Source of the DNA: Reyranella sp. CPCC 100927
Lineage (GTDB): Bacteria > Pseudomonadota > Alphaproteobacteria > Reyranellales > Reyranellaceae
DNA: 64,000 bases
Reading direction: 5' to 3'
Assembly (NCBI RefSeq): GCF_007859315.1
Contig: NZ_VOHA01000003.1
Location: 186,001 to 250,000, forward strand
Positions 23,345 to 42,877 of this stretch are shown piece after piece. The notes below the pieces were generated by a model. The model ran no database searches. It was not told the DNA's origin and worked only from the letters and a program-made list of their open reading frames with translations. Position 1 is the first letter of the stretch; each line of letters opens with the position of its first letter. A program made the position numbers and the translations under genes.

Positions 23345-24352
23345 ATGCGCTGGCGTGGCGACTCCAGTGGCGATATGACGACCCCGGCCGTGCTGTCGGC
23401 CGGGGCGCATGTCGTGTTGCTGGCGGTCGCCCTGTTCGGGCTGCCGAACCTGACGCGGGCGCCGGATGATTCGCTGGCGGACGTGCCGATCTACGATGCC
23501 GCAGAGATCGGTCCGCAATCCAAGGCGCCTGTTGTCTCTCAGGATCGGCCGCAGGATCGCAAGCTGCCGGAAGCCGAAAAGAACACGCCGGCACCACCTG
23601 CGCCGCAGGTCGAGGCGGCGCCCAAGCCGCAACCCGACCCGAAGCCCGATCCCAAGCCCGAGCCTCAGGTCGCCGCTGTTCAGCCCAAGCCGGAGGACAA
23701 ACCGGCGCCCAAGCCTGAACCGAAAGTCGAGAAGCCCAAGGACCCCGACGCCGAGGCGCTGAAGCCCAAGCCGCCGGAGCCAGCCGTCGAGCGTAAGCCC
23801 GATCCGAAGCCCGAGCCGCCCAAGCCGGAGGTCAAGAAACCGGAGCCGCCGAAGCCCGAGGCGCCCAAGCCCGAGGTCAAGAAACCGGAGCCGCCCAAGG
23901 CGCCGCCGAAGACCCTCGACCAGATCCTGTCGGAGCAGACCAACCGCACGCCGCGGCCACCGCAACCGGTCGCGGGCGACGGTCGGCCGAATGTGCCCGG
24001 CACGCGTACGCCGCAAACGGCGCTCGCGGCCGGCCGGTTGACCGCCAGCGAGAACGCGGCGATGGCCGACAAGGTTCGGCCGTGCTGGTCCGTCAACGAT
24101 GGTGGGCGCGATGCCTCGCAGTTGATCGTCTACATTATCGTGGACATGGCGCCCGACGGGCGCGTGACCGAGGCGCGTATTTCCGACGAGACGCGGTCGG
24201 CGATGGCGGGCAACCCGCTCCTGCGGGCGTTCGCCGAAGCGGGGCAGCGCGCCGTGCTCAACCCGCGCTGCCAGCCGCTTCCGTACCCACAGAACAAGTA
24301 TGAATCGCTCAAGCGATTCGTATTCAAGTTCGATCCGCGCGACCTGCGCTGA
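23345..24352 (+). CDS. tolA: Tol-Pal system protein TolA
   Basis: Spans the periplasm from the TolQR motor to Pal. One N-terminal membrane helix (VLSAGAHVVLLAVALFGLPNL, residues 15-36) is followed by a long Pro/Lys/Glu-rich rod from about residue 60 to 195 with runs such as PKPEPPKPEVKKPEPPKPEA, replacing the Ala/Lys helix of enterobacterial TolA. The C-terminal domain (IVYIIVDMAPDGRVTEARISDE) is TonB-like. Length 335. AAGGAG precedes the ATG. The proline-rich rod may depend on EF-P or YebC for smooth translation. Confidence 0.9.
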   Translation: MRWRGDSSGDMTTPAVLSAGAHVVLLAVALFGLPNLTRAPDDSLADVPIYDAAEIGPQSKAPVVSQDRPQDRKLPEAEKNTPAPPAPQVEAAPKPQPDPKPDPKPEPQVAAVQPKPEDKPAPKPEPKVEKPKDPDAEALKPKPPEPAVERKPDPKPEPPKPEVKKPEPPKPEAPKPEVKKPEPPKAPPKTLDQILSEQTNRTPRPPQPVAGDGRPNVPGTRTPQTALAAGRLTASENAAMADKVRPCWSVNDGGRDASQLIVYIIVDMAPDGRVTEARISDETRSAMAGNPLLRAFAEAGQRAVLNPRCQPLPYPQNKYESLKRFVFKFDPRDLR

Positions 24353-39158: not shown

Positions 39159-39459
39159 GATTAACTCGGGCGATCGGCGGCGAACACCGCCGCGCACGCC
39201 TCGGCGCGTTCAGAATATGAGTGAGCGCGCCCTATGTTCGTGCGCTATGCAATTAGTGTTTCGCCGGATTCACTTTCTGCCTTTATAATCAGGCGGTTGA
39301 CGTTGATGATCGGGCCTGGGAAAAGGCGCGATATGCTGCAGTCTGGCGTGAACTGTGTGTCAATTGACTGATATAAAACAGTATCTTATAAGGCTTTGTG
39401 AATGTATGACTTTAGCTTTGTGGCGTAGGGGTTTGTAACCTTATCTCGTGGGAAGGGTG
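39159..39459. other. AT-rich upstream region of the SARP-like regulator
   Basis: About 300 bases without a gene. The first half has the local GC content, but from 39270 it turns AT-rich (CTTTATAATCAGG, TATAAAACAGTATC). It contains the sigma-70 promoter at 39364-39392. Nothing else is recognised. The composition contrast with the genes on both sides is visible by eye and suggests that the regulator and the peptide genes after it arrived as a unit. Confidence 0.55.
39364..39392 (+). promoter_or_regulatory. Sigma-70 promoter of the SARP-like regulator
   Basis: TTGACT (39364-39369), a 17-base AT-rich spacer and TATAAG (39387-39392) match the housekeeping consensus at five of six positions in each box. 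Transcription would begin near 39399, leaving a leader of about 60 bases before the coding sequence. It is the clearest promoter in the window. Confidence 0.7.
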
Positions 39460-41496
39460 ATGTTACGGATATACCTTCTGGGCGGCTGTCGGGTGACCCT
39501 GTCAGATGGGTCCGACGGAACGCCGCGGGCGAAGAAGACCCGGGCCGTACTCGCTTTTCTGGCGTTGACCCCGGATGCGTCGGCAACGCGCGAGCGGGTT
39601 GCCGGCCTGGTGTGGAGCGATCGCCTGGAGGAGCAGGCACGCGGTTCGCTGCGCCAGGCCATTACTGAATTGCGCGCCCTGTTTCGCGATGCCGATGCCG
39701 GCGCGCTGCACATTGACCGCGACGTGATGCGGGTGAATCTCGACCAGGTGTGGATCGATGCCCGCGAGGTCGAGCGCATGGCCGACGGGCCGCTGGAGGA
39801 AAAGCGCAAGATTCCCGAGCTGTACCGAGGCGACCTGTTGGCGGATTTGTCGGCCATCGGTGGTGCGTTTCAGGATTGGTTGTATGGCGAGCGCGCCTGG
39901 CGGCGCGAGCAGGCCTTCGGCGGCATGGCCGCGGCGATGCGCGAGCTGATCGCGCTGCGCGACCTGACCGCAGCCGAATCGATTGCACGTCACATGCTGG
40001 CGCTGGAGCCCTCGCATGAGGAGGCTCATCGCGGGTTGATGGAGGCCTTTGCCCGTAGCGGCGACAAGGCGGCGGCTTTGCGCCAGTTTCAGGTCTGTGT
40101 CGACGCGCTCAAGCGCACCCTGGACGCCAAGCCCGGGCAGCCGACGATCCAGCTGTACGAGCGCATCCGCGCCGACCGGCTCGACGCACCGATGCCCGAG
40201 CTGGCTGCGGCGGCCGCGCTCCCGACAGCTGCGCCATCCCCGGCGACAGCCGTGACCGCCGCCAGGGCGGCGCCGGCTTCGGCCCAGGAAGGGCAGATCG
40301 AAACCCTGCCGGTGGCGGTCCTGCCGTTTCGCAACGTCGGCGGCGACCCCGAGCAGGAATACCTCGGTGAAGGCTTCGCCGAGGACATCGTCGATGGCCT
40401 CTCTCGCTTCAAGTGGCTGTCCGTCATCACCGGCGGGTCGACAAGCGTTTTCCGCGGACAGGAGGCCGACCCTCGCGAAGTCGGGCGCCGGTTGGGTGTG
40501 CGATATGCCATCGAGGGCACGGTACGCCGTCAGGGCAGCGTCATTCGAATCGGCGTGCGACTGGTCGATTGCGAGGATGCCCGGGCGCTGTGGACCGATC
40601 AGCGCACGGTGGAGTTCGCGCGTCTGTTCGACGTGCAGGAAGAGGTCGTCCGCGGGGTCGTCGGGCAGCTCAATCCCAAAATCCTTCAGGCGGAAATCGA
40701 TCGGGTTCGGCGCCGACCGCCGGACAACGCCAACGCCTACGACTGCCTCCTGCGGGCAGTGCCGCTCATCTACCAAGCCTCTCCCACGGCTTTCCGGACG
40801 GCAGGCGAGTTCCTCGAGCGGGCCCTGCGCCTGGATCCCGAGTACGGCCACGCCCATGCATGGATGTCGTTCTGGCATCTGATGGGGGTGGGGCAGGGAT
40901 GGCTGGCCGACCGCGACAAGAGCGGCGAGGCCGCCGAGCGACACGCCCAGGCGGCGATCGAACAAAACCCGGACGACCCCATGGGGCTCTCGTTCGCCGG
41001 CCACGTGGAAGCCTTCCTGCGCCACAACTATGATCTGGCCGAGCACTTCCACCAGCGCTCGTTATCGGTGAATCCGAACTTCGGCTGGGGGTGGGCGCTG
41101 AGCGCGCTGGTCGCGTGCTACCGGGGCCGCCCGCAAGATGCGCTCGAGCGCATGGAACGATATCGGACGCTCTCGCCGTTCGACGGCTTCCGTTATTTCT
41201 GGGAAACGGTCACGGTCATTTCGTTGACGCTGTCGGGGCGATACCAGGACGCGGTGACCGCGGCGCAGCCGATCCTGCGTGAACATCCCAATTTTACAGC
41301 CGTTTACGTGCCCGTCATTGTCAGCATGGCTTATCTCGGCCGGCCGGACGATGCACGTAATCTCGTGAAACAGCTTCTGGCGCTACAGCCAGGTTTTTCC
41401 ATCAAAGTATACGTGTCGACATCGCCCCTGGAACGCTCCGAGGATCGTGATCGCTATGCGGTCGGCCTTCGCATGGCCGGTCTTCCGGAGCAGTGA
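39460..41496 (+). CDS. SARP-like regulator: winged helix, BTAD and TPR domains
   Basis: About 678 residues. MLRIYLLGGCRVTLSDGSDG opens a winged-helix DNA-binding domain (to about residue 95) with KKTRAVLAFLALTPDASATRERVAGLVWSD; the bacterial transcriptional activation domain follows to about 240 (LYRGDLLADLSAIGGAFQDWLYGER, RHMLALEPSHEEAHRGLMEAFARSGDKAAALRQF). A Pro/Ala linker leads to a TolB/FlgO-like block (VAVLPFRNVGGDPEQEYLGEGFAEDIVDGLSRF), then TPR helices to the end. No ATPase domain. The start is GTG 39448 or ATG 39460; GGAAGGG lies close before the latter. It is followed 200 bases later by the repeat peptide, a likely target. Confidence 0.88.
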   Translation: MLRIYLLGGCRVTLSDGSDGTPRAKKTRAVLAFLALTPDASATRERVAGLVWSDRLEEQARGSLRQAITELRALFRDADAGALHIDRDVMRVNLDQVWIDAREVERMADGPLEEKRKIPELYRGDLLADLSAIGGAFQDWLYGERAWRREQAFGGMAAAMRELIALRDLTAAESIARHMLALEPSHEEAHRGLMEAFARSGDKAAALRQFQVCVDALKRTLDAKPGQPTIQLYERIRADRLDAPMPELAAAAALPTAAPSPATAVTAARAAPASAQEGQIETLPVAVLPFRNVGGDPEQEYLGEGFAEDIVDGLSRFKWLSVITGGSTSVFRGQEADPREVGRRLGVRYAIEGTVRRQGSVIRIGVRLVDCEDARALWTDQRTVEFARLFDVQEEVVRGVVGQLNPKILQAEIDRVRRRPPDNANAYDCLLRAVPLIYQASPTAFRTAGEFLERALRLDPEYGHAHAWMSFWHLMGVGQGWLADRDKSGEAAERHAQAAIEQNPDDPMGLSFAGHVEAFLRHNYDLAEHFHQRSLSVNPNFGWGWALSALVACYRGRPQDALERMERYRTLSPFDGFRYFWETVTVISLTLSGRYQDAVTAAQPILREHPNFTAVYVPVIVSMAYLGRPDDARNLVKQLLALQPGFSIKVYVSTSPLERSEDRDRYAVGLRMAGLPEQ

Positions 41497-41592
41497 CAGA
41501 AGGGTTCTGTGCAAGCGTCTTTCTGTTTTTCGCATTCCGATCGCGTCTAATTCACGGTCCTTTCGTTATGGAGGACACATTCTACTCACGTA

Positions 41593-41612
41593 CCGCATCG
41601 GGGTTGATGCGG
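41593..41612 (+). promoter_or_regulatory. Hairpin in the leader of the repeat-peptide gene
   Basis: CCGCATC and GATGCGG form a perfect seven-pair stem with a six-base loop 84 bases before the peptide ATG. Further small inverted repeats follow (CCGGTT...AACCGG near 41636-41657). TCTTTT begins six bases after the hairpin, so it could be a weak terminator after the regulator or a structured leader. A TCTAAT at about 41547 might be a -10 box, without a good -35. Confidence 0.35.
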
Positions 41613-41696
41613 ATCGGTCTTTTGGGCGGGTCGCCCCGGTTTGCCAGTCGCAACCGGTCGCTCACTGACTGAACGGTTTCTGAGGAGGATGCAGTA

Positions 41697-41903
41697 ATGG
41701 TTAAGATCGGTATGATGTCGCCTGCGTTCGGTAAGGCGAAGAAGGTCAAGCTGGGCATGATGTCGCCGGCTTTCGGCAAGGCGAAGGTCAAGCTGGGCAT
41801 GATGTCGCCCGCGTTCGGCAAGGCGAAGGTCAAGCTGGGCATGATGGCGCCGGCTTTCGGCAAGTCCAAGGTCAAGCTTGGCATGATGGCGCCGACTTTC
41901 TAG
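41697..41903 (+). CDS. 68-residue peptide of five 14-residue repeats
   Basis: After Met1 the whole product consists of repeats of consensus VKLGMMSPAFGKAK: unit 1 (41700-41744, with one extra Lys and Ile for Leu), 2 (41745-41786), 3 (41787-41828), 4 (41829-41870, MMAPAFGKSK) and a shortened 5 (41871-41900, ending APTF). It has 11 Met, 14 Lys and 5 each of Phe and Pro, and no Cys, Trp, His, Arg or acidic residue. No signal peptide, leader or membrane span. GAGGAGG at 41682-41688, eight bases before the ATG, is among the strongest binding sites here, and a terminator follows. I do not recognise it. A modified multi-core peptide or a basic structural peptide are both possible. Confidence 0.8.
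   Translation: MVKIGMMSPAFGKAKKVKLGMMSPAFGKAKVKLGMMSPAFGKAKVKLGMMAPAFGKSKVKLGMMAPTF
41700..41900 (+). repeat. In-frame 42-base tandem repeat inside the peptide gene
   Basis: Five direct copies of a 42-base unit (first 45, last 30). Copies differ mostly at third codon positions: the Pro codon is CCT, CCG, CCC, CCG and CCG, the following Ala codon GCG, GCT, GCG and GCT. The encoded residues change only at Ser/Ala, Ala/Thr, Ala/Ser and Ile/Leu. The antisense strand is also open across it, which follows from the repeat and is not taken as a gene. Confidence 0.9.
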
Positions 41904-41934
41904 TCGGCAACTTCAATCATCCAGTCTATTGAAG

Positions 41935-41966
41935 GCGGGTGCGGCCGGGTTGTCGCACTCGCTTTT
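41935..41966 (+). terminator. Intrinsic terminator after the repeat peptide
   Basis: GCGGGTGCG (41935-41943) pairs with CGCACTCGC (41954-41962) with one G-T pair, around a ten-base loop, followed by TTTT. A smaller hairpin CTTCAAT/ATTGAAG (41911-41933) lies just before. The peptide therefore has its own short message, with partial read-through needed for the next gene to be co-transcribed. Confidence 0.75.
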
Positions 41967-42100
41967 CAGCGTTGCTGTTTCTGATCAAGATCTTCTTAGA
42001 TCCGATTTGCCTCGGTCGCGACTGAGCGATACGTGTCGGCGGACGCCGCGTCGTTCGTGGCTTGGCCGCCAAATCCGAATACGCCAGCGTCGGTAGAGTC

Positions 42101-42877
42101 ATGAGCAAGACGGCAAAATCGGAAATCCCCAAGCCTCTGATCACGTTCTACCGGATGCTGCCGGATGCCCGGCCGCCACTGCGTGCCGATCAGGCGGCCG
42201 GTGGAACCTATCCGACGCGCGCCTTCCGCTATTGCGAGCCGATGCGTACGGCATCAGCGTTCGGCTGGTACTTGTTTCCACCCATGGACTTCCAGGTCCT
42301 GTGGGACGGTCGGGAGACTTTCTGGAGTCACGAGGGCGCGGAAGGGCAGTGGCTGCCGCTGGGACAGAGCCACTATCCGGACTTCGATACGTACTTTGAT
42401 GAGCGTGCGCCCGAAGACTGCAAGGGCTTCGCGTTACCCTTCCTGGGCGCGCCGAATGAGCCGGGGCTGCTCCAGATCTGGAGCGGCTATGTCGCCCGCT
42501 CGGCGCCGGGATGGAGCGTGTTGGCGCGGCCGCTCGCCAATTTTCCGCGTCCCTCCGGATACGAGGCTTACGAAGGCATCATCGAGACCGATCGCTGGTT
42601 CGGCCCGATCTTCACGAACGTGCGGCTGACGCGCACTGGCGTACCGATCCACATCCGCAGCGAGGTGCCGCTGCTGCAAGTGCAGCCATTCCCTCGCTGG
42701 CTCTATGCCGACGGCGTGTCAGAGAATTTCGATCTCGTTGAAAGTCTCGAAGACTTCAAGAACGAAGACTGGGACCATTTCCGCGCCACCATCGTCAATC
42801 CGATGAACGACGAAAATCGCCCGCGCGGCGAGTACGCCGTGAAAGCCCGCAAGCGACGCAAGCAGGAAGACGAATAA
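42101..42877 (+). CDS. DUF6065-like protein of unknown function, downstream of the repeat peptide
   Basis: A 258-residue soluble protein with no signal peptide. From memory it resembles DUF6065, which has no known activity. Nine Trp are spread through it: FGWYLFPPMDFQVLWDG, TFWSHEGAEGQWLPLGQSHYPDFD, LLQIWSGYVARSAPGWSVLARPLANFPRP, GIIETDRWFGPIFTNVRLTRTGVPIHIRSEVPLLQVQPFPRWLY. The beta-rich pattern with scattered His, Glu and Asp could fit a cupin-like or oxygenase-like barrel, but no known metal motif is clear. The C-terminus is basic then acidic (KARKRRKQEDE). ATG 42101 is preferred to an upstream TTG at 42062. It follows the repeat peptide by 197 bases and may act on it. Confidence 0.7.
   Translation: MSKTAKSEIPKPLITFYRMLPDARPPLRADQAAGGTYPTRAFRYCEPMRTASAFGWYLFPPMDFQVLWDGRETFWSHEGAEGQWLPLGQSHYPDFDTYFDERAPEDCKGFALPFLGAPNEPGLLQIWSGYVARSAPGWSVLARPLANFPRPSGYEAYEGIIETDRWFGPIFTNVRLTRTGVPIHIRSEVPLLQVQPFPRWLYADGVSENFDLVESLEDFKNEDWDHFRATIVNPMNDENRPRGEYAVKARKRRKQEDE

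Follow-up and report, generated by a model that had tools for sequence, protein, structure and literature searches.

In a 64-kb stretch of DNA (the window; positions 186001-250000 of contig G000:C23, in a genome of 9.1 Mb), a gene for a peptide made of tandem repeats is followed by a gene for a DUF6065 (PF19541) protein, and the two were found to recur as a two-gene cassette whose second member belongs to one subfamily of DUF6065. The peptide open reading frame (ORF; 41697-41903, + strand, stop codon included) encodes 68 residues consisting throughout of five 14-residue units of the VKLGMMSPAFGKAK type. The DUF6065 gene (42101-42877, + strand, stop codon included) encodes 258 residues with a predicted trimeric-dUTPase fold. 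Physical interaction is the economical reading of the pairing, of its restriction to one DUF6065 subfamily, of lost dUTPase hallmarks and of a switch in charge, and we consider it probable that the peptide and DUF6065 bind each other in some way, as ligand or substrate. Coordinates are those of the window unless a locus or contig is named; L and G labels denote loci and genomes, L035-L041 being the named loci of the window's own family.

The repeat peptide and a DUF6065 protein form a recurrent cassette

An earlier note on this DNA had described the five-copy repeat peptide and a DUF6065-like neighbour of 258 residues, and both were confirmed. The peptide repeat has the top score among five rows from Tandem Repeats Finder (TRF) in the window (274; runner-up 171), and the neighbour matched PF19541 at 48.7 bits (gathering cut-off 26.6, E 8.7e-13), the closest named relative found being from Vineibacter terrae (95% identity). 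When 61 relatives were searched with the 68-residue peptide, matches were obtained in 10 genomes, one of which (G053) was dropped as a chance match with two stops inside. In all nine remaining genomes a DUF6065 gene adjoins the peptide gene, a result favourable to the two-gene system that the note had proposed. The window's genome also carries a second, diverged pair (G000:C2:113545-115338), with a peptide of nine 29-residue units and a DUF6065 protein that is 48% identical to the first and scores 49.7 bits against PF19541.

A pattern-based scan using the DUF6065 alignment, covering one genome per species in 84,980 species and perhaps not exhaustive, gave 41 loci of the DUF6065 subfamily, and 32 of these have a same-strand repeat ORF upstream. 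Among the 32, two are cut by contig ends (L048, L072), one is partly masked (L059), one is loosely bounded (L063), one matched the profile weakly (L070, E 0.0049) and one was recognised through self-similarity only (L074). As a control, an automatic internal-repeat score with a pass mark of 0.5 was applied to 700-base windows directly upstream of the DUF6065 match; 24 of 38 such windows passed, against 3 of 273 other windows of the same loci (38 of the 41 loci being scorable). L074 has another, Ala-rich repeat ORF reading about 700-1400 bases past its DUF6065 match, which passes the score and may be low complexity.

In a class sample of 385 genomes the DUF6065 profile gave 24 matches, and five genomes held full-length subfamily members (G000, G003, G116, G242 and G338). 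The peptide profile A4 matched G000, G116, G242 and G338, all with the DUF6065 subfamily, and missed G003, whose Lys-rich peptide came from the search with the 68-residue peptide. A peptide match in G145 is the sole case kept that has no DUF6065 gene, and there the contig ends about 100 bases past the peptide; matches in G217, G267 and G398 (E 0.002-0.008) were dropped as chance. Among plasmids two Rhizobium records matched, and a Rhizobium plasmid carries the pair, with the repeat gene annotated as a hypothetical protein. No plasmid record matched the L052 peptide, phage records gave no match, one viral contig gave a match, and the DUF6065 protein matched phrog_7084 of PHROGs weakly (E 7e-4).

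Across lineages the peptides hold 2-11 tandem units. Most unit lengths fall between 14 and 29 residues, and L041 also has shortened copies of roughly 10. In most lineages the unit core is V-x-x-G-x-x-x-P-x-[FL], which reads VKLGMMSPAF in the window, VEMGGMSPLF in L039 and L041 and, elsewhere after D-x-G or similar, VRLGGMAPSL, VRLGNMSPAF, VRLGGQGPAF or VKIGARSPAF; the Rhizobium plasmid peptide has VHIANKSPAF. Looser cores are found in L064 (VRYGGGSMP), L057 (VRIGAGLKGLP), L065 (IKIGGGNINL) and L070 (VTLGDMGRQF). Within the window peptide the deviations are small: copy 1 has VKIG, a Lys is added at one junction and the final copy stops at APTF. A profile built from 18 two-unit segments, none of them from the window's family, recovered peptides of that family in L035 (1e-4), L036 (4e-17), L037 (3e-7), L039 (6e-7) and L041 (3e-7), and was not significant for L038 (0.74) or L040 (0.15). 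No constant N-terminal leader was seen in the peptides compared.

Differences between repeat units, summed over 32 ORFs (the window and 31 related ones; L059, its repeats masked as N, was excluded and L063 contributed zero), number 183, 110 and 432 at codon positions 1, 2 and 3, in a sum where comparisons inside one ORF are non-independent and the DNA is GC-rich. The window ORF alone has nine differences, distributed 3, 0 and 6. Since the differences fall as in a coding frame, with codon position 2 best protected, the repeat ORF looks like a coding gene, and an antisense ORF (41582-41884) was judged its shadow. Eleven repeat proteins (the window peptide and 10 relatives) were searched against Pfam and NCBIfam, three of them also against PADLOC and PHROGs, and none of those scanned had a credible match. 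What did appear were short stretches adding up over the repeats, all under the curated cut-offs of NCBIfam and, with one exception, of Pfam. That exception, PF17356 on L036 (31.1 vs 29.7 bits), has no single significant stretch and was judged chance, as was a PHROGs match on L062 (E 4e-7), again a sum of short stretches.

Predicted dUTPase fold and charge of the DUF6065 partner

The trimeric dUTPase fold was predicted for the window DUF6065 protein and predicted again for a homologue. Equivalences with the dUTPase motifs were set by sequence alone. By this alignment-based correspondence, the motif-1 Asp site is Tyr57 and the motif-3 Asp site is Glu162 in 41 of 41 loci each; Arg143 stands at motif 2 in all 41 and Gln193 at motif 4 in 37. 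The C-terminal portion of the DUF6065 alignment shows no glycine-rich motif 5 (RGxGGFGSTG type), a motif that 13 aligned true dUTPases of these genomes possess. Because Tyr occupies the metal-Asp site of motif 1 and motif 5 is missing, we infer that the subfamily protein is a former dUTPase that has lost this function. That motif 5 might be supplied in trans by the repeat units found no support in a profile comparison (probability 0.05) and is speculation only.

Canonical DUF6065 proteins belong to the same Pfam family (hhalign E 8.9e-17 for the subfamily against three canonical sequences) and have Cys, Gly-Trp and G-[IVL]-[IV]-E-T-D type motifs in common with the subfamily, but the Tyr57 site is mostly Glu (19 of 25) and Tyr in none. 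Upstream of canonical genes a repeat ORF passes in 1 of 24, with a Phe-rich reading resembling low complexity. The canonical set excludes two spurious short-ORF matches, one of which reads GWY, as well as three duplicates and the paralogue in the window's genome. In L021 (1480-3093) and L023 a canonical domain is fused to a C-terminal half that resembles a 2OG-Fe(II) oxygenase, and further long canonical ORFs occur in L081, L099 and L105 (591, 557 and 624 residues).

Peptide charge was compared with that of DUF6065 domain residues 14-200. In the Vineibacter group (window and L035-L037) the peptide carries +0.17 to +0.21 per residue and the domain -2 to -4; in the sister group L038-L041 the peptide carries -0.17 to -0.22 per residue and the domain +6. 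True dUTPases of the same genomes range from -2 to 0 in four of the Vineibacter group and are -1 in two of the L038-L041 group, and BTAD neighbours range from -7 to -9 in three of the former and from -12 to -14 in three of the latter. The charge of the C-terminal tail showed no relation to that of the peptide (-0.13, p 0.49). In a tethered model, in which the natural in-frame neighbours of L050 were joined as one monomeric chain with the stop read as Gly, paired two-residue strands bracket every core, which would fit each unit forming a small loop.

Expression signals and neighbouring genes

The Shine-Dalgarno sequence GAGGAGG (41682-41688, + strand) lies eight bases 5′ of the ATG, just as described in the earlier note, and a full AGGAGG also precedes the likely peptide starts in L035, L036 and L037. 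Between the two genes stands a GC-rich terminator-like hairpin with TTTT (41935-41966, + strand), whose 11-pair stem spans 41935-41962. The minimum free energy of 41920-41985 is -27.4 kcal/mol (z -3.2) and that of the hairpin alone -18.9 kcal/mol, values that support the note's dedicated terminator; a simple terminator scan of the window did not list the hairpin. A strong intergenic hairpin (-18.9 to -32.9 kcal/mol) is common to the window and L035-L041, the eight loci of this family, and each scores below all eight of its own shuffles; in L035, L036, L040 and L041 the stem takes in part or all of the T-run as paired bases. L052 has a strong hairpin too, the remaining 17 tested gaps have none or a weak one, and seven gaps were too short and not scored. 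The strong Shine-Dalgarno sequence and the terminator would be in keeping with the note's inference that the peptide is made in large amount. Another tandem repeat in the window (23804-23899) has a 45-base period and a TRF score of 171.

A simple script collected 114 neighbouring genes around the 41 loci, one upstream and two downstream where available. BTAD is the commonest family (11 of 114), with five MFS and two EamA genes. In the window a BTAD + TPR regulator (39448-41496, + strand) lies directly upstream of the peptide as a possible, non-universal companion, and a gene that by eye resembles a BTAD-type regulator is divergently oriented beside the second pair on G000:C2. No universal third gene was found among the 114, and no modifying enzyme, protease or exporter recurs among the 25 commonest of their 91 families, where the earlier note had seen no classical modifying enzyme (radical SAM, YcaO or LanM) of ribosomally synthesised and post-translationally modified peptides (RiPPs). 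Other genes around the window pair are ordinary ones, encoding ILVD, TctC, Rieske, DctP and CBS proteins.

Elsewhere, histidine kinase genes lie upstream in L064 and L071, and a response regulator gene in L056. MFS, EamA or TauE transporter genes adjoin the DUF6065 gene in L057, L056, L065, L070, L046 and L075, and on the Rhizobium plasmid an MFS transporter gene overlaps its end. In L070 (3570-7976) the pair is preceded by a papain-like peptidase gene and followed by an EamA and then a FAD_binding_3 gene; in L074 (1046-4369) a LodA-like oxidase gene and a Trp_halogenase-type gene lie upstream on the opposite strand.

Candidate functions and known systems

The explanation proposed here, to which we give slightly less than an even chance, is that DUF6065 is a non-catalytic multivalent receptor for the repeat peptide. 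The protein would form a homotrimer on which the peptide units would dock, probably within or close to the three clefts that in a dUTPase would accommodate dUTP, and several units per peptide with several sites per trimer would yield a tight multivalent complex. In the window's family the terminator after the peptide gene would let the peptide outnumber its partner, and in some lineages the BTAD-type regulator next door may control the cassette. Regulation, storage and delivery of the peptide for processing are candidate downstream roles for the complex. In a wider formulation, the cassette would be a new class of peptide system in which a dUTPase-fold protein acts on a tandem-repeat peptide. 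Each unit would enter the ancestral dUTP cleft or complete it, and would there be either chemically modified or retained as active ligand in a multivalent assembly of peptide and trimer. We consider this unlikely, if still a candidate.

Several observations weigh against a receptor of this kind. Comparison of the DUF6065 subfamily with 13 dUTPases by hhalign was not significant (E 0.43) and a profile search of PDB sequences found no dUTPase at E up to 1; the putative relationship is one of predicted fold only. Tyr57 was partly preselected, as the FGWY pattern used for fetching occurs in 35 of the 41 loci; Tyr also occupies position 57 in the remaining six and in seven relatives found by other means. 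The invariant Cys45, Arg143 and Glu162 of the subfamily would suit an enzyme too. No repeat ORF was found in nine of the 41 loci (L046, L047, L055, L058, L060, L061, L067, L073, L075), which on a rough tree form three inner lineages and two basal sequences. Four of them (L058, L060, L061, L067) have DUF6065 genes of the Elioraea thermophila type whose relatives L052, L054 and L059 do have a repeat ORF, apparently a single loss in one clade (L059 being outside the tree). The searches overlap in their counts, seven of the 41 loci (L035-L041) being the same contigs as genomes of the 61-relative search. The relation between peptide and domain charge over 31 loci (Spearman -0.47, p 0.007) weakens without the acidic clade (rho -0.21, p 0.30, n=27) or with one value per clade (-0.34, p 0.26, n=13), and the opposite charge shift is one striking event rather than an established trend. 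Finally, the peptide remained undocked in the tethered model (predicted local distance difference test score 34-62), in which a monomer could miss a between-subunit site.

The invariant residues Cys45, Tyr57, Arg143 and Glu162 could alternatively be catalytic, with the peptide as a multi-core RiPP-like precursor, DUF6065 as its modifying enzyme in a new use of the dUTPase fold, and the product leaving by general transporters. The varying core copy number and the intergenic terminator of some lineages fit a precursor made in excess, and the transporter genes beside DUF6065 in six L loci and Rhizobium, like the peptidase and FAD_binding_3 genes near the L070 pair, would be in keeping with it. 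However, the peptides have no constant leader, proteases and exporters do not recur among the commonest neighbour families, two of the transporter loci (L046, L075) lack a repeat ORF, no open-licence PMC paper searched pairs a dUTPase-like protein with a biosynthetic gene cluster, and we know of no dUTPase-fold enzyme that modifies peptides; we regard this account as unlikely, if still a serious candidate. A peptide that inhibits or regulates a still active DUF6065 nucleotide enzyme, in the manner of Stl, or a toxin-antitoxin-like module, would agree with the small gene standing first near a larger one, with Glu162, Arg143 and Gln193 at dUTPase motifs 3, 2 and 4, and with phage dUTPases that bind the Stl repressor (PMC5593958), a precedent for the fold binding a regulatory protein. 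The Tyr at the motif-1 Asp site, the absent motif 5 and a PADLOC scan that matched neither the window pair nor two more repeat proteins make it improbable. The earlier note had also offered a Lys-rich peptide that binds DNA or membranes, which would here be free-standing, with an incidental neighbour. The net charge of +14 in the window fits this idea, but it is largely refuted and we rejected it because the charge flips sign in sister lineages (-11 to -17 in L038-L041; -1 in L049 and +1 in L070); the adjacency of DUF6065 far over control also speaks against it.

Through the pairing, a repeat ORF that was hypothetical and a functionally uncharacterised domain become a well-defined pair that recurs, has a predicted fold and shares a core motif. 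If the receptor or a modifying role were true, bacteria would have recruited the dUTPase fold to bind or modify peptides, and a peptide family so far overlooked would exist in Vineibacter, Reyranella relatives, Elioraea, Roseomonas, Sneathiella, Bradyrhizobium, Rhizobium and further proteobacterial genomes. Neither DUF6065 nor PF19541 was mentioned in the open-licence PMC papers searched, and no description of the peptide-DUF6065 system was found in the searches made.

Some RiPPs are made from multi-core precursors with tandem cores. The cassette resembles these in its small gene of near-identical units in varying number, followed by one protein gene and, in some lineages, separated from it by a terminator; it differs from them in having no constant leader, no known maturase class found and no protease or exporter recurring among the 25 commonest neighbour families. 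With trimeric and phage dUTPases the subfamily has in common the predicted fold and, by inference, the binding by that fold of another protein and not just a nucleotide (PMC5593958), and it departs from them in its Tyr at the motif-1 Asp, its Glu at the motif-3 Asp, its missing motif 5 and its non-significant sequence similarity. Whereas the partner in the Stl-dUTPase system is a repressor, the putative partner of DUF6065 is a tandem-repeat peptide encoded next door.
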